In this document: positions 4,901 to 17,619 of the stretch, piece after piece
Position numbering within the stretch: position 1 is the stretch's first letter
Layout: each line of letters begins with the position of its first letter
IMG/VR virus record: IMGVR_UViG_3300030061_002297
Span: 1 to 25,206 of that record
DNA: 25,206 bases
Origin: a virus
Strand: one strand, 5' to 3'
The notes under the pieces: model-generated
The model's input: only the letters and a program-made list of their open reading frames with translations
Told to the model about the DNA's origin: nothing
Databases searched by the model: none
Made by a program: the position numbers and the translations under genes

Positions 4901-6196
4901 ATGACATCAGCATATTCAACGGATTTAAAACTCGAACTTATGGTAACTGGCGAAAACGCTGGTACTTGGGGAGATAACACAAATAATAATTTAAATTTAA
5001 TTCAACAAGCAATTGCAGGATTTGAACAAGTAACACTTTCAAGTGGTTCAACTTTAGCTTTAGCAATGACTGATAAAGCAATTTCTAATGCTAGAAATAT
5101 GGTAATTAAATTTGCTTCTGCATCAATCGCAGCTAGCACAATTTGTACTATTCCAGATAGTATAGAAAAATTTTATATTTTTGATGTTTCAGCAATAACA
5201 AACCCAACAAATCTAACAATTAAAACTGCATCAGGCACTGGGTTCACTTGTGATCAAGCAAAAATTTACGCAGCATATTCTGATGGTACAAACCTAAACG
5301 AAATTTCATTAGACACTCTTGGTGGAACTGTTGCAGCAGCAAATATTTCAGGAACGATAGCGACAGCTCAAATTGCTGATGACGCTGTGACTTTTGCAAA
5401 AATGCAGGACACTACAACTAACAACAGAGTTTTAGGAGCTGCAACTGCTGGAACTGTTGGTGAAGTACAAGTTGCTACAGACATGATTGCAGATGACGCT
5501 GTTACTGCTGACAAATTAGCAAACACTGCTGTAACTGCAGGATCTTACACAGCATCATCAATAACAGTAGATGCTCAAGGACGATTAACAGCTGCCGCAA
5601 GTGGATCAGGGGGAGCTCAAGGTTATCAATTAACAGAATTTAGACAAGGTTCAGATAGTTTTACTTATGGTGCAGTCGACACAAACGCAACCAAAGGTGC
5701 TGGAATAATTTCTGGCGGTGGCGGAGGTGGCGGCCGTTCAAACCAAGGGGCAGGTGCTAGACCTGGTGGCCATGGATTTTTCGGTGTATGGGGAGTCGAT
5801 CTTTCTCCAGGAACTATGAATGGACAATCAGTTCAAGTTGGAGCTGCCGGAAGCGGTGGCGGAAGTGGGCAAGCTGGTCAAGCGGGCGGAGCCTCGAATT
5901 TTGGAAACGTAGTTAACGCTGGTGGCGGAGGCGGTGGATCTTCTCCACATACTCCTAATAGTCCAAGACCATCTGCTGGAACTACTAATACACCATCAGT
6001 ATTTAATTACAGCACAACAGATTTTTCTGACACAACTAACATAGCTCCTCCTGCTGCAGGAACCGGAGGAAATGAAAGTAATGGCCCTAACTCTGTAAGA
6101 AATTCATTTACAGTTGGAGGTTCAGGTGGTAGCTCAAGCTCTGGATCAGGAACGGGTGGGGCTGGTTATATTTATATTTTTGAACAAGTAACATAG
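4901..6196 (+). CDS. Tail fibre with a polyglycine-rich C-terminal tip (receptor-binding candidate)
   Basis: This 431-residue protein has three parts. Residues 1-45 contain LMVTGENAGTWGDNTNNNLN, a recurrent N-terminal signature of marine phage fibres. Residues about 150-235 carry shaft-like repeats (IADDAVTFAKM, IADDAVTADKLANTAV) followed by SSITVDAQGRLTAA, common in phage fibres. Residues about 268-431 are extremely Gly/Ser rich with two polyglycine runs (about 272-278 and 341-346), ending in the hydrophobic GYIYIFEQV. This tip resembles the glycine-rich adhesin domains of T-even gp38-type proteins, which fold as packed polyglycine II helices. It therefore probably recognises the host surface. 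The family resemblance is recognised; the fold is inferred. Confidence 0.85.
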   Translation: MTSAYSTDLKLELMVTGENAGTWGDNTNNNLNLIQQAIAGFEQVTLSSGSTLALAMTDKAISNARNMVIKFASASIAASTICTIPDSIEKFYIFDVSAITNPTNLTIKTASGTGFTCDQAKIYAAYSDGTNLNEISLDTLGGTVAAANISGTIATAQIADDAVTFAKMQDTTTNNRVLGAATAGTVGEVQVATDMIADDAVTADKLANTAVTAGSYTASSITVDAQGRLTAAASGSGGAQGYQLTEFRQGSDSFTYGAVDTNATKGAGIISGGGGGGGRSNQGAGARPGGHGFFGVWGVDLSPGTMNGQSVQVGAAGSGGGSGQAGQAGGASNFGNVVNAGGGGGGSSPHTPNSPRPSAGTTNTPSVFNYSTTDFSDTTNIAPPAAGTGGNESNGPNSVRNSFTVGGSGGSSSSGSGTGGAGYIYIFEQVT

Positions 6197-6206
6197 GATT
6201 AAAAAA

Positions 6207-6665
6207 ATGCCAAATATATTTTTTAGACAAGATAATCAAGTTTGGAGAGTAGCAAAAGATGACTCTGATGCCGCTTCTGTAGAAGCAAACTCTGGAGATA
6301 CTTTAGTTAAAAAAACATTAAGTCAAGAAGATTATGATGCAATAGTTGGAAACACAAAAACATTTGCAGAAAATTCTACGGCAGATAATATTACTTTAGT
6401 AGATTTAGTTTCACCCACACAATCAAAATCATTGTTTATTGAAGATTGTCAAAGAGAATTTAGAGTTATAGATAATTTTGTAAGTAGTGGAAGAACTTCT
6501 ACTATGAAAGAAAGAATGACAACTTACAAGACTCTTTTAAATGTAGCGATTGAAACAGCACAACAAACAGCAGACGATACAACTTTTTCAGGATATCCTC
6601 CACAATACGTAGCCTCTTTAAATCCTGGAGCAGAGGTATTTCATATATTGCAAATACCTAATTAA
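6207..6665 (+). CDS. Unknown protein directly behind the tail fibre, possible fibre partner
   Basis: This 152-residue acidic protein starts MPNIFFRQDNQVWRV and has a mixed beta then helical make-up. A helical stretch spans about residues 98-122 (TMKERMTTYKTLLNVAIETAQQ) and the protein ends with a Gly/Pro-containing tail. No family was recognised. The gene lies 10 bases after the fibre gene and is co-oriented. Many phages keep a fibre-assembly chaperone or a distal fibre subunit at this position, which is the best guess from context. Only a weak purine-rich site (AGGA) lies upstream. Confidence 0.65.
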   Translation: MPNIFFRQDNQVWRVAKDDSDAASVEANSGDTLVKKTLSQEDYDAIVGNTKTFAENSTADNITLVDLVSPTQSKSLFIEDCQREFRVIDNFVSSGRTSTMKERMTTYKTLLNVAIETAQQTADDTTFSGYPPQYVASLNPGAEVFHILQIPN

Positions 6666-6684
6666 ATTATATATTGTGTCTTTT

Positions 6685-7431
6685 ATGAAAGACATAAAAT
6701 TTATTGCTCCTAAAGTCTACATTGATGATTTTGATGACAGACCAGTTCCCTCTTTAAATCATTTACCAGACTGGTACAAAAAACTTAAACATCATCCTAA
6801 TCGAACAACTATTAAAGGTTGTAAGCCATTCTTGGATTCCATGACAGCAGGGTATGTTTTAAAATTACCTCAAGAATATTACATTGAAATAACGACTGTA
6901 GAAAAAGACAAATATAAAATTCATGTTAGATCATGTTATGGAGATTTTGCTGGATTTCCAAAATACCAATTTTTAAATTTAAATGAAGATATGGAAACCT
7001 CTATACATCCTACTTATCAAATAGAAGGTTCACCACAACTTGAAAAAAACTTTAATTTTCCTGTAATGAAGTTTTATAACCCTTGGAAAATAAAAACTCC
7101 TGATGGTTATTCATGCTTATTTACACCTCCTTTAAATAGGGTTGATGAAAGGTTTGAAATTATTAACGGTATTGTAGATACAGATTCATTTACAGAATGT
7201 ATTAATTTTCCGTTTATTTTAAAAAAAGATTATTTGTTCAAAAATATTAAAGATGGAAAATATTTTTCTATCTTAAAAAAAGGAACTCCTTATTGTCAAA
7301 TTTTTCCATTTAAAAGAGAAGGTTGGAAAATGAAAATACAAGAAAGTGATTCAAAGATTCCAGGGAGTATGTTTACAGAAAAGTTTAATTGGTACAGAAA
7401 TAAAATTTGGCACCGTAAAAGTTATAAATAA
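6685..7431 (+). CDS. Protein of an unknown-function family seen in marine phages
   Basis: From the ATG at 6685 this is 248 residues starting MKDIKFIAPK; a GTG at 6676 in the same frame would add three residues. Neither start has a clear Shine-Dalgarno site. Recognisable blocks are LPDWYKKL near residue 29, an IKGCKPFLDSMTAGYVLKLP block at about residues 43-62, and a PWKIKTPDGYSCLF block near 134-147. I associate these blocks with proteins of unknown function in marine myo- and podoviruses, from memory rather than a search. No nucleotide-binding or metal motif stands out. It is the last plus-strand gene before the antisense halogenase operon and shares its low GC and missing ribosome site, so it may have arrived with that cassette. 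Confidence 0.75.
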   Translation: MKDIKFIAPKVYIDDFDDRPVPSLNHLPDWYKKLKHHPNRTTIKGCKPFLDSMTAGYVLKLPQEYYIEITTVEKDKYKIHVRSCYGDFAGFPKYQFLNLNEDMETSIHPTYQIEGSPQLEKNFNFPVMKFYNPWKIKTPDGYSCLFTPPLNRVDERFEIINGIVDTDSFTECINFPFILKKDYLFKNIKDGKYFSILKKGTPYCQIFPFKREGWKMKIQESDSKIPGSMFTEKFNWYRNKIWHRKSYK

Positions 7432-7437
7432 TTATTT
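7426..7437. other. 12-base palindrome spanning two abutting stop codons
   Basis: The perfect palindrome aaataattattt covers the TAA of the plus-strand gene (7429-7431) and the TAA of the minus-strand gene (7432-7434 read in reverse). There is no loop and no GC-rich stem, so it is unlikely to be an intrinsic terminator by itself. It marks the exact point where opposing transcripts meet. Confidence 0.5.
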
Positions 7438-7656
7438 TTTATTTAAATCAATTTTAGTGTTTTCATCACTCAATTTGTTTTGATATTTTTCTGGTAAGTT
7501 TGTATTAAAAGTTACAATGGTATGAACAAAACTATTTATAAAATTTTTAGATGTATCGAAACTTAAAAGCATCCCACCCTTAAAAAATATTTTAAGTCTT
7601 TCTTTCCAAGAAAAATTAAATTTTATATTTCCTGCTTTAATTTGTTTTATTTCCAT
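7432..7656 (-). CDS. Small unknown protein, last gene of the halogenase operon
   Basis: This 74-residue protein is Lys/Phe rich with an amphipathic stretch FSWKERLKIFFKGGMLLSF at about residues 15-33 and a polar, charged C-terminus. No family was recognised. It is co-directional with the oxygenase upstream of it, 13 bases away, and its stop codon abuts the stop of the converging gene. It is probably a real gene because the frame is complete, fills the remaining space exactly and follows the operon. The function is open: an accessory or partner protein of the enzymes is one guess. Confidence 0.55.
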   Translation of the reverse strand: MEIKQIKAGNIKFNFSWKERLKIFFKGGMLLSFDTSKNFINSFVHTIVTFNTNLPEKYQNKLSDENTKIDLNKK

Positions 7657-7669
7657 AAAAACTTATATC

Positions 7670-8272
7670 TTATAATTTTAAATTATCCAAGCTTTCATAA
7701 TATCCAACCTCTCCTTTAAACCATGTATTAAAAGATAAAGTTGTTCTTACTTTGTCACTTGGGTTTGGTTCTACCTCATGAGCTAAACTAGAAGGAAAAA
7801 TAATTAAATTACCTTTAGAGGCAGTCACAGTTAAATCTTGTTCTAAGTATGGAGTGGTTTTATTTTTTTGAAAAATTACTTGTTGATTTAATTTAGTCGG
7901 GCTATGAAATTTTGTCTGTGTATGTTCTCCAGTTAAATAATAAACACCACTATAAATACTATTCGGATGACGGTGTAAATGATGTCCTTCACCAGGTCTA
8001 CTCATAGTCAGCCAAGATTGGGTAATATATAGTTTTGCTCTGTAATCATAGCCCAAAATATTATGGTGATAATTATGTAAATGTCTTAAAATAAATTCCT
8101 TAAAATTTTTAAGTTCATATTTATCTAAGTAAAAATGATTCAAGCTTGTAGAATTTAACATGTTTAAATGAGCCTCGACATTTTTAAAACATTTTTTTTC
8201 TTCATCGTTAATTTCATATTTATCTTCTGATACATAAACAGGTTGTGAAAATAATTCTAAAATTTGACTCAT
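7670..8272 (-). CDS. 2OG/Fe(II) oxygenase-like protein, HxH type
   Basis: This 200-residue protein resembles the putative 2OG-Fe(II) oxygenase family with the signature HxHPNS..SGVYYL: here LHRHPNSIYSGVYYLTG (residues 99-115, His100 and His102). Next comes IIFPSSLAHEVEPN (157-170) with distal His165, then Arg176 and SFN (180-182), where the family binds the 2-oxoglutarate carboxylate. The usual HxD aspartate is replaced by His. Enzymes of this superfamily hydroxylate or otherwise oxidise C-H bonds while splitting 2-oxoglutarate. The start overlaps the preceding stop (ATGA). No Shine-Dalgarno site is visible, so translation is probably coupled. The substrate is unknown. Confidence 0.85.
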   Translation of the reverse strand: MSQILELFSQPVYVSEDKYEINDEEKKCFKNVEAHLNMLNSTSLNHFYLDKYELKNFKEFILRHLHNYHHNILGYDYRAKLYITQSWLTMSRPGEGHHLHRHPNSIYSGVYYLTGEHTQTKFHSPTKLNQQVIFQKNKTTPYLEQDLTVTASKGNLIIFPSSLAHEVEPNPSDKVRTTLSFNTWFKGEVGYYESLDNLKL

Positions 8273-8781
8273 TTTATTTCTTTATATATAATATTTAAAT
8301 TTATTCTTACTTTGTCTACATTACAAGAAATTCCTTTATGTAATAAATTACTTTCAAAAACTTTTGCTTGTCCCATTTTATCTTTGTATATTTTCCCATC
8401 TATGTCAGTTCCTCCATCTGTTGTATGTAAGTTATAGACTATGGTTTTACATTTATTTGGGATTGGCCAATCTCTATGATATTTTGACAAACTAGGTGTG
8501 TAATATAGATTCCAAAAAAATCTGTGAGGTTCTGTTTTTACTTTTAATCTTTCACTGACTTTATCTAATATTAATTGTGCATAATCATTCAATTCTTTAT
8601 ACTCACTACCATCTTTTCCCTCTTGATAAGTTATATTTTGTAAACCAGTGTTATATGACATTAATGTTTCTAGTTGAGATAAATGCATTTCATCTCTAGA
8701 TATAAACCATTCATGTCTTGTAACTAAATCAAGTATTTTTAAATTAGTATCTGGAGGTAGTATTTTATCAAAAATTTTCAT
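8269..8781 (-). CDS. 2OG/Fe(II) oxygenase-like protein, HxD type
   Basis: This 170-residue protein carries the iron-binding facial triad in order: His102 and Asp104 in KYHRDWP, distal His148 in ESNLLHKGIS, and an arginine (Arg159 in KVRINLNI) suited to bind 2-oxoglutarate. A TDGGTDIDGK turn (121-130) precedes the last strands, like the GG turn of prolyl-hydroxylase-type double-stranded beta-helix proteins. The first 90 residues are helical. It is smaller than typical cellular members but similar to phage ones. The start overlaps the previous gene by one base, and the stop overlaps the next start (ATGA). The substrate is unknown. Confidence 0.8.
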   Translation of the reverse strand: MKIFDKILPPDTNLKILDLVTRHEWFISRDEMHLSQLETLMSYNTGLQNITYQEGKDGSEYKELNDYAQLILDKVSERLKVKTEPHRFFWNLYYTPSLSKYHRDWPIPNKCKTIVYNLHTTDGGTDIDGKIYKDKMGQAKVFESNLLHKGISCNVDKVRINLNIIYKEIK

Positions 8782-9329
8782 TAAAATCCCCAGCTTACAT
8801 AAGAGTATCTAATACCTTCTTTAATATCATTTACTCTATGTGCGTATATAAAATTACTAGGAAATAATAAAATATCCCCTTGCTTTAATTTAACAGTGTG
8901 TTCATCATTAAAAATAAATTCTCCACCAGAAAAATTATCATTTAACAAACCAACGACAGAAATTATAGGAACACCTTTATTTTCCCCATCAAATATAGAA
9001 TGAATATGATCTACATGATTTTTCATGTTTGTTCCTTCTTTGTATCGATTGAAACGTATTTTTGTCATTGCTGTAATCCAGGAATGAATATTATGTTTTG
9101 CTCTATAGTTTTCACAACATTTAATAATAACATCTTGTAATATTTTATGGTTGTCTCCAGCAGGTAGAACCTCTAATTCTTTATCGGTTCTTGCACCAAC
9201 AACTTGGCCTTTTTCATTAGACCAGGAATGAGAATCCCATTTTTTTTGGTTGAGTAAATTAATTAAATTATTACAGAAATTTTTGTCAAGGGCGTTTTGA
9301 ACTTCTATGTAATCATATATTTTTTTCAT
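8781..9329 (-). CDS. Prolyl 4-hydroxylase-like 2OG/Fe(II) oxygenase
   Basis: This 182-residue protein is the clearest prolyl-4-hydroxylase-type member of the operon. It shows HVD (His105, Asp107), the LLNDNFSGGEFIF core (128-140), QGDILLFPSNFIYAHRV (150-166) with distal His164, and Arg174 before the last strand. The N-terminal 30 residues form a helix-rich cap (LDKNFCNNLINLLNQKKW). Relatives hydroxylate proline or other residues in proteins, but phage members have been found without known targets. It overlaps the halogenase by four bases (ATGA), which suggests matched production of the two enzymes. Substrate assignment is not possible from sequence. Confidence 0.88.
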   Translation of the reverse strand: MKKIYDYIEVQNALDKNFCNNLINLLNQKKWDSHSWSNEKGQVVGARTDKELEVLPAGDNHKILQDVIIKCCENYRAKHNIHSWITAMTKIRFNRYKEGTNMKNHVDHIHSIFDGENKGVPIISVVGLLNDNFSGGEFIFNDEHTVKLKQGDILLFPSNFIYAHRVNDIKEGIRYSYVSWGF

Positions 9330-10738
9330 CTTATACTTTCTATTACTTTGTTATGTGTAATATATTCTTTTGTAAAATTAAATAAGTCTTTATGTTGTTG
9401 TAGTGCAAAAGCTTTTAAAGGGGAGGCTGCATCTAATTCTTTTTTTATGTTTGATATATTAAATTTATCTAAAGCGTGTAATACAATAATCCAGTTTGGA
9501 GCTCTAAACATATGCCAACCAATTTTAAAATCGCTATTTCTAATCATTCTTATTTTTGAAATTTCTAGTTTTTCTTGTACTCCATCAAGTATAGGTAACT
9601 CTTGCATGTCTTTCCAAAAAGAAGTGTTTTGTTTTTTAGTCAAATAATGCAGTTGAACAAATTCAATTAAATTTGTGAATAAATACTCATTATGTTTATT
9701 AAAAGATTTTTTATCTAGCGATGGTAAAAATTGATTCAAACAAAAAGCTTGTTGAATTATACTGCCAATTGAAGTTGCTTCTAGTGGTTCTACAAACCCA
9801 GCCGACAAACCAATAGCTACAACATTTTTATACCAAAAAGTTTTAACTCTACCTGCTTCAAATTTAAAAGAACGGGTTGGTTTAATTTTTTGTTGATATA
9901 CAGATTCTACTTCTTTAATTGCTTCTTCCTCTGTAGTGTGGTTTGAACTATAAACATATCCATTGCCATACCTTTCTTGAGTTGGAATCTTCCAATTCCA
10001 ACCATAATTAAATGCTCTTGATAATGTCCAAGCATTAAATTCTTTTTCTTTTGCTGTAGGAAAAGCAAATGCGCTGTCTAAAGGTAAATATTTTTTATAA
10101 GAAATATAAGGCACCTCTAATTGTTTCTTTATTAAAAAACCTGTAAAGCCACTACAATCAATAAATAAATCTGCAATATAATTTTGTTTTTGTCCTTCTA
10201 AATGTTTTATGTTACCTAAATCGTTTTTAAAGATGTTTGTAATTTTATCTTCTATAATAAGTATATTCTTTTCAATACATACTTTGTTTAAAAAAGAATT
10301 TAATTTAAAAGTATCAAAATGGTATTGTAATACTAAATCTTTGTAATCTCTTTTAATAAATTTATTATGGTATAAATTTTGATGAGACATTTGTTTTGCA
10401 TTTATGTTTTTAGATATTAGATTTGCATATAAATAATAATAATCCCCACTCTCTTGACTAAAGTCAGAATTTACTGAATGAAGAAAAGGTTCTTTAGTCC
10501 AACCTTCAAACATGATTCCTGATTTTAAAGTTGCTCCAGTTTCTTTTATTAAGTCTTTAAATTCAATTCCAATATAACTCATAAACTCAGCCCAATGTTC
10601 TGTGGATCCTTCACCTACTCCAACTATACCTATGTCATCTGATTTAATAATATTTATCTTATAATTTGGAAATTTAGTTTTTAATATTAATGCAGTTACA
10701 AGTCCTGCAGTACCGGCTCCTAAAATATTAATTTTCAT
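9326..10738 (-). CDS. Flavin-dependent halogenase (tryptophan-halogenase family)
   Basis: This 470-residue protein carries the family hallmarks. The FAD-binding GAGTAG is at residues 7-12, GVGEGST at 40-46 and the halogenase signature WNWKIP at 247-252. Lys72 in LKSGIMFEGW aligns with the catalytic lysine of PrnA (Lys79). The SAGFVEPLEATSIGSI block at 312-327 includes Glu320, matching the Glu of the PLES motif in bacterial enzymes; the Ser after it is Ala321 here. The reaction uses FADH2, oxygen and halide to make hypohalous acid, passed to the lysine for electrophilic halogenation. It is shorter than PrnA or RebH (about 530), so the substrate cap probably differs. A cyanophage relative, VirX1, halogenates diverse small substrates. 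No flavin reductase gene is in the window, so the host likely supplies FADH2. Confidence 0.95.
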   Translation of the reverse strand: MKINILGAGTAGLVTALILKTKFPNYKINIIKSDDIGIVGVGEGSTEHWAEFMSYIGIEFKDLIKETGATLKSGIMFEGWTKEPFLHSVNSDFSQESGDYYYLYANLISKNINAKQMSHQNLYHNKFIKRDYKDLVLQYHFDTFKLNSFLNKVCIEKNILIIEDKITNIFKNDLGNIKHLEGQKQNYIADLFIDCSGFTGFLIKKQLEVPYISYKKYLPLDSAFAFPTAKEKEFNAWTLSRAFNYGWNWKIPTQERYGNGYVYSSNHTTEEEAIKEVESVYQQKIKPTRSFKFEAGRVKTFWYKNVVAIGLSAGFVEPLEATSIGSIIQQAFCLNQFLPSLDKKSFNKHNEYLFTNLIEFVQLHYLTKKQNTSFWKDMQELPILDGVQEKLEISKIRMIRNSDFKIGWHMFRAPNWIIVLHALDKFNISNIKKELDAASPLKAFALQQHKDLFNFTKEYITHNKVIESIR

Positions 10739-11271
10739 ATTTTTATTGGAATATTAGTATTGTCCCAACTTTTTACATCAGTCATATTAAAAGCTAAACT
10801 AAATCTTTGTTTTATTTTTGACTGAGCAACAAGATGTTTCATGATAGGATTGAATAAAATAAACCTACCTTTTACAGAATTAATTACTTGTTTAATTTCT
10901 GGAAAACTAGTACCCGGGCCACCAGTAGTCAAATATAGAATGCCACAAAATGCTGTAGCTTCTCCTTCATGAGAGTGATAATCTGTTGAATCTCCTTCAT
11001 TCATTATAACACCCCATGAGTCTTTTATGATAAAAGATTTTTCCCATATCTTTTTTATATCAGGTTGAATTAATTTTAAAAAATTATGAAAATCTGGATC
11101 ACCATTAAATCTTTCAAAAGAAGTCATGTGAGGCACATTTGTTTTATAACTTAAGGTTGGGTCTATATTAAGTTTTATTTTTTCAATTAATTTATCGCAA
11201 AGGCTCATGTCTGTTATATCATTTGAAACTATTTTAACTTTTTTTTCTATGGTAAATTCTAAATCTTGCAT
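10735..11271 (-). CDS. 2OG/Fe(II) oxygenase-like protein, HxH type (second copy)
   Basis: This 178-residue protein shows DYHSHEGE (His99, His101, Glu102), the strand AFCGILYLTTGGPGTSF (107-123), GRFILFNPIMKHLVAQ (135-150) with distal His146, and RFSLAFN (156-162) with Arg156. The spacing and the HxH pattern match the 200-residue protein at 7670-8272, so the two are distant relatives within this operon. The metal-binding aspartate is absent; His101 or Glu102 could replace it. It overlaps the halogenase by four bases and the upstream methyltransferase-like gene by 13 bases. The role is probably oxidation of a substrate handled by the same pathway, which is inference. Confidence 0.8.
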   Translation of the reverse strand: MQDLEFTIEKKVKIVSNDITDMSLCDKLIEKIKLNIDPTLSYKTNVPHMTSFERFNGDPDFHNFLKLIQPDIKKIWEKSFIIKDSWGVIMNEGDSTDYHSHEGEATAFCGILYLTTGGPGTSFPEIKQVINSVKGRFILFNPIMKHLVAQSKIKQRFSLAFNMTDVKSWDNTNIPIKI

Positions 11272-11762
11272 TCTATTCTATCTGCAAATACTGTTGTAAT
11301 TGTTTCATCATTTTTTATATTACGCCAGCCGAAGTCATAAGCGTTTTTATATTTTCTTTTAAGATAAAAATAAGCCTCTGGATTCCAATTTCCATTATCA
11401 AGTATTAAAATATTTTTATAATTATAAATTTCTATAAGATTTTTTGCAATCACCTCTCTTGAAATATTTTTGTAATTATTATCGATTAATATACAGTGCG
11501 CTTCTTCTATTGATTCTTTAAATTTTGGCTTTGAAATAGTGTCAAAATTAAAGGGAAATATTTCTACGTTATCTAACCTCATTTTTTTTATGTGTTCTAG
11601 ATAATCAGGATCATCTTCATAAGTAGTCACTTTTTTAAAAAATTTATTAAAATAAATTGTTGAATTACCACAACCAAATTCAACTAAATTAAAATTTTTT
11701 GTATCTTGTTTTTTAAACCATTCCAAAAAACTAAAAGTAAGTAAAGGAGTTGGATCTAACAT
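11259..11762 (-). CDS. Methyltransferase-like protein (class I SAM fold)
   Basis: This 167-residue protein has the start of a Rossmann fold: FNLVEFGCGNST (residues 24-35) is a good motif I, VTTYEDDPDYL (45-55) gives the acidic end of strand 2, CILIDNNYKN (90-99) fits strand 4, and ILILDNGNW (118-126) fits strand 5. It is short for a stand-alone methyltransferase (usually over 200) and lacks an obvious target-binding insert, so it may act on a small molecule or be catalytically reduced. It shares one base with the upstream stop and overlaps the next gene by 13 bases. A methyl group could be added to a halogenated or hydroxylated product; that coupling is inferred. Confidence 0.7.
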   Translation of the reverse strand: MLDPTPLLTFSFLEWFKKQDTKNFNLVEFGCGNSTIYFNKFFKKVTTYEDDPDYLEHIKKMRLDNVEIFPFNFDTISKPKFKESIEEAHCILIDNNYKNISREVIAKNLIEIYNYKNILILDNGNWNPEAYFYLKRKYKNAYDFGWRNIKNDETITTVFADRIECKI

Positions 11763-12247
11763 TAGACGTAATTAATATTAATATTTAAACGTATATCTTG
11801 GTCAGTACAAGTAGTGCTTTGATGAGGTTTACTAGTATCAAAAAACACTGCTCTGTTTGCAATACTTTCGATTTTAGTTCCGTCTTTTAAAATAGTATAT
11901 CCATTACTGCTATTTATATGAAATATTAAACCCCTGTGTGGCACTGGTAAATCAGTATGCAAGGCATGTGTGAATTGTGTTTCAGTAGATGGATAGCAAT
12001 TAGCTTTTGCTCTTATTAGAGAATAGTAAGTAAAATTACTCATTATAGGAATTATTACTTGTTTAAAAAAATCACTACATACAGAATTGTCTTGGTAAAA
12101 ATAATGCACAAAATGATACAAATCATTAGAATTTGGAGTTGCGGTTCCTAGTTTATAATAATAGGGTAGTTGAAAAGTAACAATATCTTGTATTTTCTTA
12201 AATACCTCATTGTCGAGAAAGTTATCTACTATTTTAAGGTCGTTCAT
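11762..12247 (-). CDS. 2OG/Fe(II) oxygenase-like protein, HxD type, first gene of the operon
   Basis: This 161-residue protein has the facial triad HTD (His97, Asp99), His142 in DTSKPHQSTTC, and Arg153 in DIRLNINI. The segment LIFHINSSNGYTILKDGTKI (107-126) before the distal His is a pattern common in marine-phage oxygenases. The N-terminal half is helical and carries KANCYPST just before the iron motif. It is the promoter-proximal gene of the minus-strand operon, with its ATG 51 bases from the divergent nozzle-like gene. No Shine-Dalgarno site is visible before the ATG. The substrate is unknown. Confidence 0.83.
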   Translation of the reverse strand: MNDLKIVDNFLDNEVFKKIQDIVTFQLPYYYKLGTATPNSNDLYHFVHYFYQDNSVCSDFFKQVIIPIMSNFTYYSLIRAKANCYPSTETQFTHALHTDLPVPHRGLIFHINSSNGYTILKDGTKIESIANRAVFFDTSKPHQSTTCTDQDIRLNININYV

Positions 12248-12298
12248 GTTATTTATTCTGATACTATACTATAGTATAATAATCTAGTAAAATTAGTT
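12248..12298. promoter_or_regulatory. Divergent promoter/operator region with a 14-base palindrome
   Basis: This 51-base gap separates the minus-strand operon from the plus-strand nozzle-like gene. It contains the perfect palindrome tatactatagtata (12265-12278). A consensus -10 box TATAAT (12275-12280) overlaps its right arm and has a weak -35 (tttatt, 12252-12257) 17 bases upstream, pointing to the plus strand. On the minus strand the same palindrome offers TATACT. A palindrome over two outward promoters could be an operator controlling both directions. No Shine-Dalgarno site is seen for either first gene. Promoter activity is inferred from sequence match only. Confidence 0.55.
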
Positions 12299-14452
12299 AT
12301 GCCTTTAACAAACGTACAGATACAACCAGGATTTAATAAACAAGTCACAGAAGTAGGAGCAGAAGGTCAATGGACTGATGGTGACTTTGTTAGGTTTAGA
12401 TATGGTCTGCCTGAAAAAATTGGTGGTTGGGAACAAATTACTTCTTCTACTTTAGTAGGAGCTGCAAGAGATCAACTAGTTTGGGCTGATTTAGATGGTA
12501 GAAGATACGCAGCCATAGGTACTAACAAGGCTTTAATTATTTATTTTGAAGGTGCATTCTATGATGTCTCACCATTAGGTGCTGCAATTACTGGAGCATC
12601 TTTTACGACAGCTAACACTAGTCCAACCGTTACAGTAAACAAAATTGCTCATGGTTTATCTGCGGGGGATTTGTTTACATTTACCTCAGTTACACCTCCG
12701 GTAGGAGCTGGTTATTCTGTTGCAGATTTTACTACAAATACTTTTGAAGTTGTAACTGTGCCAAGTCAAGATACATTTACTATAACTATGTCATCTAATG
12801 CTGGAACAACCGTAGCAGCTAGTGGTTCTGCTATAATTAATCCTTACGTAAAAGTAGGTCCCTTAAGTCAAACTTCTGGTTTTGGTTATGGTACTTCTGG
12901 GTGGGGTGGATCGTCAGGAGTAATATCAACATTAAATGGTTTATTACAAGATGACACTGCAGGAACTGGAGGATCAGGAACTTCAATTACATTATCCTCA
13001 GTGGTTGGTTTTCCAACATCAGGAACAATTAAAGTTGGAACTGAATTTATTTCTTATACTGGAATTTCATCAAACGATTTAACTGGAATAACTAGAGCAG
13101 TAGCAGGTACAAGATCAGCTCATGGAAGTGGGGCTTCTGTTGAAGTTTACCTTGGATGGGGTTCAGCATCATTAACTGGTGGAGTAACTCTAGAATCTGC
13201 GTCATGGTCATTAGATCACTTTGGTTCAAAATTAATTGCAACAATAAAGGACGGACAAACATTTGAGTGGAACACTATTAGTTCAACCGCTGCAGCCTTA
13301 ACTACTAGAGCAGCAGTCATTAGTGGAGCTCCAACAAAATCTGTCATGTCAATTGTTTCTGAAAGAGATAGACATTTAGTAATTCTTGGAACAGAAACTA
13401 CAATCGGCACTTCAGGCACACAAGATAAAATGTTTATTAGATTTTCGGATCAAGAAGATATATCTGATTATGCTCCAACTTCAGTTAATACTGCGGGTAC
13501 ATTTAGAATAGATTCAGGAACTAAAATTATGGGAGCTGTAAGAGGTAAAGATTATATACTGATTCTTACTGATACATCTGCATATGTCATGCAGTTTGTT
13601 GGTCCTCCATTTACATTTTCAATAAGACAAGTTGGTTCTAATTGTGGGGCTATAGGACAACATGCTATTAAGTATGCGAATGGAGCTGTTTACTGGATGG
13701 GCCAAGCTGGAGGTTTTTTTGTTTACGATGGTACTGTAAAATCTTTACCATGTTTAGTTGAAGATTTTGTATTTACAAATAAGGGAAATAATCTTGGTTT
13801 AAGTTATGCAAATGGCGAACAAATTTATGCAGGACAAAACCATCTATACGAAGAAATCAGTTGGTTCTACCCTAAAGATGGTTCAACATTAATTGATAGA
13901 GTTGTTACTTATAATTATGCCGGACAAACTTGGACTACTGGTTCATTGTCAAGGACTACTTGGTTTGATGCAACATTATATGATAACCCCTATGCAACTG
14001 AATATGGAGCAACTGGAACTCCAACATTTCCTACTATCCAAGGTGTAACAAATCAAAACGGTGCATCAACTTATTATGCTCATGAAGTTGGTAATAATCA
14101 GGTAGATTCTGCTGGTAATAAAACAGCTATTCCGGCTTTTATTCAATCTGGTGATTTTGATTTAAGTCAAGGAGGAGATGGTCAGTTGTTTATGAGTATG
14201 AGAAGATTTGTTCCTGATTTTAAATTAATTACAGGTAATGCACAAATCACTATTAACTTAAAAGACTTTCCATCAGATGCCTCCGTATCATCTCCTTTAG
14301 GTCCATTTACAATTGATAGCACAACTGGTAAAGTAGATACCCGTGCACGAACAAGGTTTGCAAGTTTAAAAATTGCAAATACATCTACAGACGAAGAATG
14401 GAGATACGGCACATTTAGAGCAGATATACAACCAGACGGAATGAGGGGATAA
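12299..14452 (+). CDS. Large nozzle-like tail protein (gp12/gp10-type) with two inserted small domains
   Basis: This 717-residue beta-rich protein starts MPLTNVQIQPGFNKQVTE, followed by WTDGDFVRFRYGLPEKIGGW (about residues 26-45), a widespread start for marine podovirus nozzle-like proteins. Two insert domains are visible. Residues about 105-180 are a beta domain (VNKIAHGLSAGDLFTF ... VPSQDTFTITMSS). Residues about 218-285 are a phage beta domain with FPTSGTIKVGTEFISYTG and ITRAVAGTRSAHGSGA. The rest shows beta-propeller-like strands (YWMGQAGGFFVYDG). A T7 gp12 or P22 gp10 type role, closing the tail channel below the adaptor, is the best fit. It ends one base into the next gene. Confidence 0.75.
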   Translation: MPLTNVQIQPGFNKQVTEVGAEGQWTDGDFVRFRYGLPEKIGGWEQITSSTLVGAARDQLVWADLDGRRYAAIGTNKALIIYFEGAFYDVSPLGAAITGASFTTANTSPTVTVNKIAHGLSAGDLFTFTSVTPPVGAGYSVADFTTNTFEVVTVPSQDTFTITMSSNAGTTVAASGSAIINPYVKVGPLSQTSGFGYGTSGWGGSSGVISTLNGLLQDDTAGTGGSGTSITLSSVVGFPTSGTIKVGTEFISYTGISSNDLTGITRAVAGTRSAHGSGASVEVYLGWGSASLTGGVTLESASWSLDHFGSKLIATIKDGQTFEWNTISSTAAALTTRAAVISGAPTKSVMSIVSERDRHLVILGTETTIGTSGTQDKMFIRFSDQEDISDYAPTSVNTAGTFRIDSGTKIMGAVRGKDYILILTDTSAYVMQFVGPPFTFSIRQVGSNCGAIGQHAIKYANGAVYWMGQAGGFFVYDGTVKSLPCLVEDFVFTNKGNNLGLSYANGEQIYAGQNHLYEEISWFYPKDGSTLIDRVVTYNYAGQTWTTGSLSRTTWFDATLYDNPYATEYGATGTPTFPTIQGVTNQNGASTYYAHEVGNNQVDSAGNKTAIPAFIQSGDFDLSQGGDGQLFMSMRRFVPDFKLITGNAQITINLKDFPSDASVSSPLGPFTIDSTTGKVDTRARTRFASLKIANTSTDEEWRYGTFRADIQPDGMRG

Positions 14453-15628: not shown

Positions 15629-15825
15629 TGAGTGATATACCAAAAATCCCTGCTGAAGCGAAAGAGATAGTTAAACACAAGAGGACAGGAAAAATTTATA
15701 CGGACAAGGCTGAGTTTGATGCCGATGTTGCAGATCCAAATACTGATACTACTGTAGATGATTTTAGACAAGATTTAGAAATTAAGGTAACTAAAGTTTC
15801 AATAATAAGTAAAACTAAAAAATAA
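15628..15825 (+). CDS. Small acidic conserved phage protein
   Basis: This 65-residue protein has a recognisable centre, KHKRTGKIYTDKAEFDADVADP (shown here as KHKRTGKIY and KAEFDADVADP, about residues 16-37), followed by TTVDDFRQDLEIKV. It is acidic overall, in contrast to the basic protein just before it, so the two could pair. A strong AAGGAG site (15616-15621) six bases upstream fixes the start. It overlaps both neighbours by one base. The function is unknown. Confidence 0.72.
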   Translation: MSDIPKIPAEAKEIVKHKRTGKIYTDKAEFDADVADPNTDTTVDDFRQDLEIKVTKVSIISKTKK

Positions 15826-16754
15826 TGAAACCAAGAGGTGCAACCGAGCTACAACATGAATTGTTGGAAAAATACGTGTCTAAAGATTTATTAGATAATT
15901 TTCAAATTTGTACATCTATACCAGGGAAAGTGCCTTTAAATCCAAATAAGATAAATATTCTTTGGCAAAAAAATTCTTATGATCAACCAAACCTACAAAG
16001 TTTTTTTAAAAACAAAGACAGATTTGATGAATATGATTGGTATGTATTTAATTCTCATTGGAACTATGAAAAATTTCGGTATTTTTTTCAAGTACCAGAA
16101 GATAAGTGTATTGTAATTAAAAATGGCACTGATCATTTTCCTCAAAGAAAAATATATAAACAGGGTGACCCTATAAGAATTATACATCATTGTACTCCTT
16201 GGAGAGGATTAAACGTTTTATTACTTGCAATGCAAATGATTAAAAACCCTAATGTAACATTAGATGTTTATAGTTCATGTCAAATTTATGGCAGTGAATT
16301 TGAAGAATCCTGTGGACCAGATTTTGAAAATTTATTTAAACAAGCTAATTCTTTATTGAATGTAAATTACATTGGTTACAAACCTAATGAATACATATTA
16401 GAACATATGACTGATTATGATCTATTTGTATACCCATCTATATTTGAAGAAACTTTTTGTGTAACTGCCTTAGAGGCTTTTTCATCAGGGCTGCATGTTA
16501 TCACTACAAATTTTGGTGCACTTCCTGAAACTTGTGCTGAGTGGCCTATATATGTTAATTATACAAAAAACTTAAATCTTTTAGCTGAGGCTACAGCTCA
16601 AGCAATTGATGTTGCTTCAGGATATTTACATACAGATACGATACAAAATCATTTAGAAGAACAACAAAAGTTTTATAAGAGATTCTATAGTTGGGATAAA
16701 AAAGGAAACGAATGGGAAAACTTTTTAAAAGGAGCTTTAAGTGTCAAACGATAA
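15825..16754 (+). CDS. GT4-type glycosyltransferase (GT-B fold)
   Basis: This 309-residue protein has a C-terminal GT-B donor-binding half of the group-1 family: IRIIHHCTPWRGLNVLLLAM (about residues 117-136), strands DVYSSCQIYG and YIGYKP, then the hallmark E-x7-E (EETFCVTALE, Glu209 and Glu217) and GLHVITTNFGALPE. It would transfer a sugar from a nucleotide-sugar donor. The N-terminal acceptor half is short, so the protein is smaller than many bacterial members (about 360-400). It starts at the TAATG junction without a ribosome site. It pairs with a second glycosyltransferase downstream. Targets could be virion proteins, phage DNA or host surface glycans. Confidence 0.88.
   Translation: MKPRGATELQHELLEKYVSKDLLDNFQICTSIPGKVPLNPNKINILWQKNSYDQPNLQSFFKNKDRFDEYDWYVFNSHWNYEKFRYFFQVPEDKCIVIKNGTDHFPQRKIYKQGDPIRIIHHCTPWRGLNVLLLAMQMIKNPNVTLDVYSSCQIYGSEFEESCGPDFENLFKQANSLLNVNYIGYKPNEYILEHMTDYDLFVYPSIFEETFCVTALEAFSSGLHVITTNFGALPETCAEWPIYVNYTKNLNLLAEATAQAIDVASGYLHTDTIQNHLEEQQKFYKRFYSWDKKGNEWENFLKGALSVKR
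16729..16734 (+). promoter_or_regulatory. Ribosome binding site deciding a GTG start
   Basis: AAGGAG lies 6 bases before the GTG at 16741 and inside the end of the previous gene. It supports the GTG as the true start of the second glycosyltransferase, since no in-frame ATG lies nearby. Confidence 0.7.
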
Positions 16755-17619
16755 ATATGTAAATGAAGATACCTATCAAACACTTCAAGACGTTAAGATA
16801 GAATCTCAATCTGATTACACTACAGCCATTACACCACTTTGGAAAACGGACACCGGACAAACAAAGTCACCGCATTCTATATTTGTAGGCACTCCCGTAC
16901 ACAGCGAAGTATCAATACATTACACTCAAGCCTTAATTGAATTCCAGCAAATGTGTTTTAAAAAAAAGACACCTGTTTCATTTCACTTAATGAAATCATC
17001 TCTAGTCACTCAAGGTAGGAATCTTTGTGTATCAGGGTTTTTAGAAAGTGATGCTACTCATTTGTTATTTATTGATTCAGATATTTATTTTCAAGCTAAA
17101 TCTATTTTTACTATGTTGGCTGCAGACAAGGATATAATATCTGTGCCCTACCCAGTCAAAACTCTAATGTGGGATAAAGCTTTTGATAAATTACAGGAAG
17201 GTAAATTAAAAAGTCCTGATGATATTAGAAAAGCTCTGCATACCTACCCAATGAAAGTTCCAAATACTGAAGATATAATAGTAAACAAAGGAGTTATGGA
17301 AGTAACTGATTCTCCAACAGGATGTATGTTAATTAAAAGAGGTGTCATAGAAAAAATGATTGAAAAGTATCCTGAAAAAAAGATAGTTCAAAAGACTATT
17401 ATTAACGGTCAATATGTAGACAAACCTCATATGTGGAATTTTTTTGATACATTACATGACCCTGTAGAAAAAGTCTTTCTAGGAGAAGATTTTGCGTTTT
17501 GTAAGCTTTGGAGAGATCTAGGGGGTAAATGCTATGCTTATGTGAGTGACTCAATTGTCCATGTAGGAGAACATCAGTATCAAGGTCGATTCTACGATGA
17601 GTTGATAAACACTAAGTAA
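16741..17619 (+). CDS. GT-A fold glycosyltransferase
   Basis: This 292-residue protein has the GT-A metal/nucleotide motif DSD at residues 112-114 within HLLFIDSDIYF, preceded by a helix with VTQGRNLCVSGFLES. A GED motif (248-250, LGEDFAFCKLWRDLGGKCY) supplies the likely catalytic acid side, and a late VHVGEH (about 272-277) offers the metal-binding His. It begins at a GTG, 14 bases inside the previous gene, with a strong ribosome site. The fold differs from the GT4-type partner, so the pair could add two sugars in sequence. The acceptor is unknown. Confidence 0.85.
   Translation: MSNDKYVNEDTYQTLQDVKIESQSDYTTAITPLWKTDTGQTKSPHSIFVGTPVHSEVSIHYTQALIEFQQMCFKKKTPVSFHLMKSSLVTQGRNLCVSGFLESDATHLLFIDSDIYFQAKSIFTMLAADKDIISVPYPVKTLMWDKAFDKLQEGKLKSPDDIRKALHTYPMKVPNTEDIIVNKGVMEVTDSPTGCMLIKRGVIEKMIEKYPEKKIVQKTIINGQYVDKPHMWNFFDTLHDPVEKVFLGEDFAFCKLWRDLGGKCYAYVSDSIVHVGEHQYQGRFYDELINTK

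Follow-up and report, generated by a model that had tools for sequence, protein, structure and literature searches.

Genome comparisons show that the antisense gene cassette at positions 7432-12247 of the virus contig IMGVR_UViG_3300030061_002297 (25,206 nucleotides, or 25.2 kb, analysed over its whole length and here called the window) belongs to what is, judged from sequence relationships, an exchangeable host-recognition module of HTVC023P-type pelagiphages. The module comprises the glycine-rich tip of the fibre, a tip partner gene, a phrog_7084 gene and the cassette itself, which includes a flavin-dependent halogenase and five 2-oxoglutarate (2OG)/Fe(II)-type oxygenases, and it is shared by phages whose fibre shaft and nozzle proteins have diverged. 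The co-inheritance of tip and cassette suggests that the enzymes finish the tip chemically or act in host recognition and do not make a separate natural product. For the joint explanation, i.e. an exchangeable module whose enzymes would act on the matching fibre tip, we estimate a probability of roughly 45%. The window is a fragment of a HTVC023P-type pelagiphage (SAR11-phage type, ocean); its structural region is collinear with this type (fibre, nozzle, two glycosyltransferases and later genes in the same order), and its nozzle-type gene is 63% identical to that of HTVC023P over the aligned pieces.

Compared with the related contig L002, the genes upstream in the window are 27-51% identical and the fibre shaft 35% (shaft identities were computed on fibre residues 1-200), whereas the genes from the tip through the cassette are 89 (tip), 84, 74, 97, 88, 89, 91, 89 (halogenase), 97, 87 and 89% identical, and the nozzle protein again only 46%. 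A second divergent phage, L004, gives 66% for the shaft, 72% for the tip, 72-85% for the cassette and 37% for the nozzle, and in comparisons of divergent phages identity is 72-97% for tip and cassette, 35-66% for the shaft and 37-49% for the nozzle. The mirror image is seen in L018, which is close to the window in its backbone: shaft 82%, tip 28%, nozzle 90%, and the cassette is absent; the tips of such backbone-close relatives are in general only 28-37% identical to that of the window. Because identity jumps within the fibre gene and drops at the nozzle, the exchanged unit begins at the glycine-rich tip, within the fibre gene, and ends in the 51-bp gap that precedes the nozzle gene. Repeats of a mobile or invertible element were looked for at the boundaries, where only AT-rich, chance-like repeats were found. 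An earlier reading made from the letters of the window (the sequence-only reading) had regarded the cassette as independent cargo whose genes should move together and be lacking in otherwise syntenic relatives. The set does recur in the same order in the window, L001-L005, L277 and L278, and syntenic relatives with a nozzle 85-91% identical carry other genes in this place and no halogenase; the cargo is not independent, as the unit also includes the fibre tip and the two plus-strand genes starting at 6207 and 6676.

The linkage of tip and halogenase was also seen when the tip sequence alone served as query against viral contigs, a test that was able to fail. For the tip type of the window this search returned the L002, L004 and L005 contigs together with the new contigs L277, L278, L281 and L282, and a halogenase is present in all five that reach the halogenase region (L281 ends within the cassette, L282 within the tip). 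A second halogenase type (L186 and its relatives) has a different, even more glycine-rich tip protein and a halogenase only distantly related to the first; here a matching antisense halogenase cassette was found in 9/9 contigs that have a tip at least 60% identical and extend far enough, with halogenases 77-100% and nozzle proteins 45-100% identical. Within this second type, L186 and L190 share 93% identity in the tip and 95% in the halogenase, compared with 61% in the shaft and 47% in the nozzle. Both types taken together, the matching cassette occurs in 14 of 14 sufficiently long contigs (tip 60-100%, halogenase 75-100% identical), half of which (L277, L278, L287, L288, L289, L296 and L306) were found by their tip only. 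Among the about 190 loci fetched before the tip-only search, no other tip was more than 37% identical. In addition, in 25 ordinary slots the identities of phrog_7084, of the first 2OG gene and of the tip partner track the tip, given the nozzle, and not the shaft (partial Mantel about 0.2, p 0.001-0.02, also without the halogenase loci). A tie this strict between halogenase cassette and tip, repeated in a second type, provides a concrete candidate substrate.

The interval between fibre and nozzle gene is a slot for 2OG oxygenases in HTVC023P-type phages: at least one 2OG gene, and three on average, was found in 89 of the 94 distinct loci of this type in which the fibre is visible. Most often the slot holds, all on the plus strand, phrog_7084, an OG_C-like gene, the gene of another HxD...H protein and a homologue of the 74-aa cassette gene, the last of these immediately upstream of the nozzle gene. 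The window type differs in that its 74-aa gene is on the minus strand and at the opposite end; since reversing the cassette restores the usual order, the cassette may have been inverted as a block. At least six arrangements of the slot include halogenases, and most likely these were recruited several times from distant branches, because a tree of 65 halogenases requires at least six changes of the label 'slot'. In this tree the window-type halogenase falls into an all-phage clade with P-SSM2, S-H38 and large uncultured phages; a recent bacterial origin was rejected, as the nearest bacterial halogenases found are only 29-35% identical, and in their neighbourhoods phrog_7084 is absent and 2OG genes are rare. 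Three large uncultured phages (L006, L008, L011) have eight to nine 2OG genes in a single stretch together with an array of several divergent halogenases, of which L006 has five and L008 four. The constant set of the window-type cassette consists of the 74-aa gene, OG_A, OG_C, the halogenase, OG_D and OG_E; OG_B is absent from L003-L005, L277 and L278, and the methyltransferase-like gene from L277 and L278. As these two genes are dispensable, the cassette does not represent one obligatory pathway.

If the enzymes act on the tip, the halogenase, with halide, O2 and reduced flavin adenine dinucleotide (FADH2) supplied by the host, and the 2OG/Fe(II) enzymes, with host 2OG, iron and O2, would do so during virion production, adding halogen and hydroxyl groups post-translationally to residues of the glycine-rich adhesin, whereby each tip type would need its own enzyme set. 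Folding or presentation of the tip may be aided by its partner and by the phrog_7084 protein; OG_B and the methyltransferase-like gene would be optional extras, and the benefit might be a better fit or stability of the adhesin. Several points weigh against this explanation. We infer the substrate, the reaction on a protein and the benefit from sequence alone. No conserved target tryptophan is visible, because L004 has a tyrosine where the window's tip has its tryptophan. With tip and cassette side by side, joint transfer alone would produce the linkage, and 2OG genes are also present elsewhere in these phage genomes. The 14 contigs represent perhaps 8-10 separate lineages, since some are near copies, and the Mantel effect is small and comes from 25 loci. 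Finally, the halogenases of P-SSM2, Syn1 and S-SCSM2R are located far from poly-Gly genes, and with these exceptions a universal proximity of phage halogenases to such genes was rejected.

The main alternative, which we consider rather unlikely but the strongest of those available, is passive co-transfer, by which shaft and nozzle genes would serve as anchors for homologous recombination, the block of tip and enzymes would be swapped between them, and the enzymes would act on unrelated host targets as auxiliary metabolic gene products. The highly variable slot between conserved genes and the 2OG genes outside it are in line with this, as are the metabolic roles proposed for phage 2OG oxygenases, namely 2OG/nitrogen signalling and DNA repair (PMC3037559) or a function together with iron-related partner genes (PMC9599517); published ideas on the targets of phage halogenases and 2OG enzymes are in general metabolic or antibiotic-related (PMC2984593, PMC3037559, PMC9599517). 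Passive transfer does not, however, readily account for a halogenase that stays with its tip in every sufficiently long contig while OG_A, OG_B and the methyltransferase-like gene come and go, for the like behaviour of two distantly related halogenases, or for the same layout in Syn9 and Syn10, which belong to an unrelated phage family. Modification of the host surface or receptor during infection, leading to superinfection exclusion or to release of progeny, would explain the matching of tip and cassette equally well through a common receptor, but no gene of the cassette suggests a link to the envelope (no search for export signals was made), and we regard it as improbable. Least likely of all, and very improbable in our view, is the complete halogenation, hydroxylation and methylation pathway for a diffusible compound that the sequence-only reading had proposed: the enzyme classes resemble tailoring enzymes and the nearest solved structures are free-tryptophan halogenases, but searches of the cassette against Pfam, PHROGs and NCBIfam revealed no scaffold-forming enzyme, carrier/precursor or flavin reductase, two of its genes are dispensable, and it is locked to the fibre tip.

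Features of the exchanged unit and its flanking genes in the window (E, expectation value of the profile match; aa, amino acids)
Feature	Position	Strand	Evidence or remark
Fibre gene	4901-6196	+	precedes antisense cassette
Glycine-rich tip domain of fibre gene, residues 237-431; left end of exchanged unit	5609-6196	+	identity profile
Tip-associated gene, 152 aa; fibre partner/chaperone-like position	6207-6665	+	co-occurrence with tip
phrog_7084/DUF6065-like protein	6676-7431	+	profile E=5e-39
Small conserved protein, 74 aa; final gene of antisense operon	7432-7656	-	stop codon abuts stop of 6676-7431
OG_A, 2OG-FeII_Oxy_5-type oxygenase	7670-8272	-	PF13759 E=7.6e-22
OG_B, 2OG-type oxygenase, optional member	8269-8781	-	phrog_274 E=5e-15; HxD...H
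OG_C, 2OG/Fe(II) oxygenase	8781-9329	-	PF13640 E=1.6e-11; HxD...H...R
Flavin-dependent (FADH2-type) tryptophan-halogenase-family protein, 470 aa	9326-10738	-	PF04820 E=1.6e-98
OG_D, 2OG-FeII_Oxy_5-like oxygenase	10735-11271	-	phrog_81 E=4.6e-13; HxH...H
Methyltransferase-like gene (weak), optional member	11259-11762	-	RrnaAD E=0.003, Methyltransf_15 E=0.0044, both sub-threshold
OG_E, 2OG-type oxygenase; first gene of antisense operon	11762-12247	-	phrog_274 E=8e-39; HxD...H...R
Divergent gap, 51 bp, antisense operon to nozzle gene; right end of exchanged unit	12248-12298	.	
Nozzle/stabilisation-type gene	12299-14452	+	phrog_3287

The eight minus-strand open reading frames of the cassette, which overlap by 1, 13, 4, 4, 1 and 4 bases and leave one gap of 13 bases, and the plus-strand fibre and nozzle-type genes on either side were all found as the sequence-only reading had described them. 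Of the functions it had assigned, the halogenase and the oxygenases OG_B, OG_C and OG_E are backed by profiles and motifs, OG_A and OG_D by profiles, and the methyltransferase is the doubtful one. Every cassette gene is under purifying selection (ratio of nonsynonymous to synonymous substitution rates, dN/dS, 0.03-0.24 in comparison with two relatives), and since other contigs also show these genes in unchanged order, they are not chance reading frames. The halogenase matches PF04820 with 330.9 bits (cut-off 21) and, in an alignment of 16 phage halogenases, shows conservation of the GxGxxG motif (G7/G9/G12), WxWxIP (here WNWKIP), the catalytic Lys72 and Glu317 of the EPL motif; its best PDB match is a tryptophan 5-halogenase, the match to VirX1 being weaker. 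The putative iron ligands of OG_A (H100, H102, H165) are kept in 120 of 120 homologues and those of OG_D (H99, H101, H146) are invariant in 37; the PF13759 profile is matched strongly by OG_A and just under the cut-off by OG_D. In both families the first iron-ligand motif is HxH and not HxD/E, and HxH...H is invariant within each of them. The conserved residues of the remaining oxygenases are H102, D104, H148 and R159 in OG_B, H105, D107, H164 and R174 in OG_C, and H97, D99, H142 and R153 in OG_E; the label 'DNA endonuclease V' attached to phrog_274 was rejected for OG_B and OG_E because both have the HxD...H motif. The methyltransferase-like gene has a motif-I-like VEFGCGNST, its methyltransferase profile matches stay below threshold, a PDB search gave no relative, and its AlphaFold model is poor. 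Signals for promoters and terminators are at shuffle level, and a sigma-70-like site at 12291-12263 on the minus strand (9/12 matches) is at chance level.

The fibre tip reaches a maximum glycine fraction of 0.36 per 100 aa. The family of its 152-aa partner (dN/dS 0.46-0.48) was seen only in contigs with the window-type tip (84% identical in L002, 69% in L004, 48% in L277). The phrog_7084 protein was modelled by AlphaFold with a pLDDT (predicted local distance difference test) of 86, but PDB matches are weak and to a dUTPase-like beta fold; with these and phage relatives as the only matches, no function was assigned from the fold, and no paper on DUF6065 was found in the literature searched. 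An association of phrog_7084 with a glycine-rich tip within the HTVC023P-type group reached only p 0.027 and is weak because most slots have such a tip. Genes of the phrog_7084/DUF6065 family lie beside glycine-rich adhesin genes in cyanophages, pelagiphages and archaeal tailed viruses, among the latter Hafunaviridae (L274 HF2, L275 HRTV-10), where 2OG genes are absent.

Separate origin of the cassette had also been proposed from its low guanine-plus-cytosine (GC) content. The cassette genes have 21-29% GC and most structural genes 30-43%, so that a drop does exist, but it sets in at about 6.2-6.7 kb, in the plus-strand genes starting at 6207 and 6676, and not at 7432. GC at third codon positions (GC3) is alike, with 0.13-0.20 for cassette genes and 0.12-0.31 for the remaining ones, and the step, being confined to codon positions 1 and 2, reflects the kind of protein encoded and its composition. 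With GC3 flat, and with equally low GC in the slots of 42 halogenase-free relatives (0.272, nozzle 0.367), the step is uninformative on foreign origin.

Further observations concern the slot and its surroundings. In L032 and L049, the slot before the nozzle gene follows a fibre tip of the tail-collar type and contains antisense OG_C/OG_D genes without phrog_7084, and some phages with such tips carry a separate 177-aa 2OG gene. Pelagiphage proteins annotated as 'ferrochelatase' (phrog_2954, phrog_3531; e.g. L047:4273-4821, L013:8295-8915, which is HTVC023P gp67, and the slot family X2OG) have an invariant HxD...H motif and no match to the Pfam ferrochelatase profile, and phrog_3531 shows, in the second half of its profile, a match to the 2OG oxygenase OG_C. 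What PMC9599517 reported as the 'ferrochelatase partner' of 2OG genes may be a misnamed oxygenase-like protein. Downstream in the window, two tandem glycosyltransferase-like genes (15825-17619) occupy the same place as in HTVC023P and HTVC027P.

Phage halogenases, 2OG clusters and the exchange of fibre modules (PMC10579305) are each already known; new is the linkage of tip and cassette. A tie of halogenase/2OG sets to the type of fibre tip was not found in the literature searched, subscription papers being outside its scope. As a tentative generalisation, many marine phages might finish their receptor-binding tips by means of flavin halogenases and 2OG/Fe(II) oxygenases acting on glycine-rich adhesins, each tip type with its own enzyme set. 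If true, this would provide a common function for phage halogenases, VirX1 included, and for a part of the 2OG oxygenases of marine phages, and the candidate substrate is open to mass spectrometry on virions of the cultured phages Syn9, Syn10, HTVC008M and S-H38.

Among the closest known systems, HTVC023P, HTVC027P and the environmental genome 023Pt_psg01 share the genome layout of the window and have their own 2OG sets in the slot between fibre and nozzle, but no halogenase there; Wittmers et al. 2022 reported 2OG clusters, with no mention of halogenases or tail fibres in the main text (PMC9599517). The module of the Alteromonas phages A5 and V22 is similar in that a fibre and its cognate chaperone moved between distantly related phages, but the module as summarised in the abstract contains no modifying enzymes (PMC10579305). 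HTVC008M, likewise a SAR11 phage, has 2OG genes in an antisense array flanked by structural genes, 2 kb from its sole poly-Gly cluster, and it encodes a tryptophan halogenase; in contrast to the window, it is T4-like (Kyanoviridae) and its halogenase lies apart, beside the terminase genes. A parallel is also provided by Syn9 and Syn10 (VirX1, PDB 6QGM): directly behind glycine-rich fibre-tip genes, one of which carries PF21722, come the halogenases, then a homologue of phrog_7084 and a run of numerous 2OG genes. In Syn9 the glycine-rich tip proteins are gp36, gp38 and gp39. These phages are T4-like, their genes are on the sense strand, and their two halogenases, only about 26-27% identical to the window enzyme, belong to another clade. 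The layout corresponds to that of the window and is found again in the large uncultured phage L008. In the Syn10 genome no poly-Gly site is more than about 6 kb away from the halogenases, and the closest is at 1 kb.

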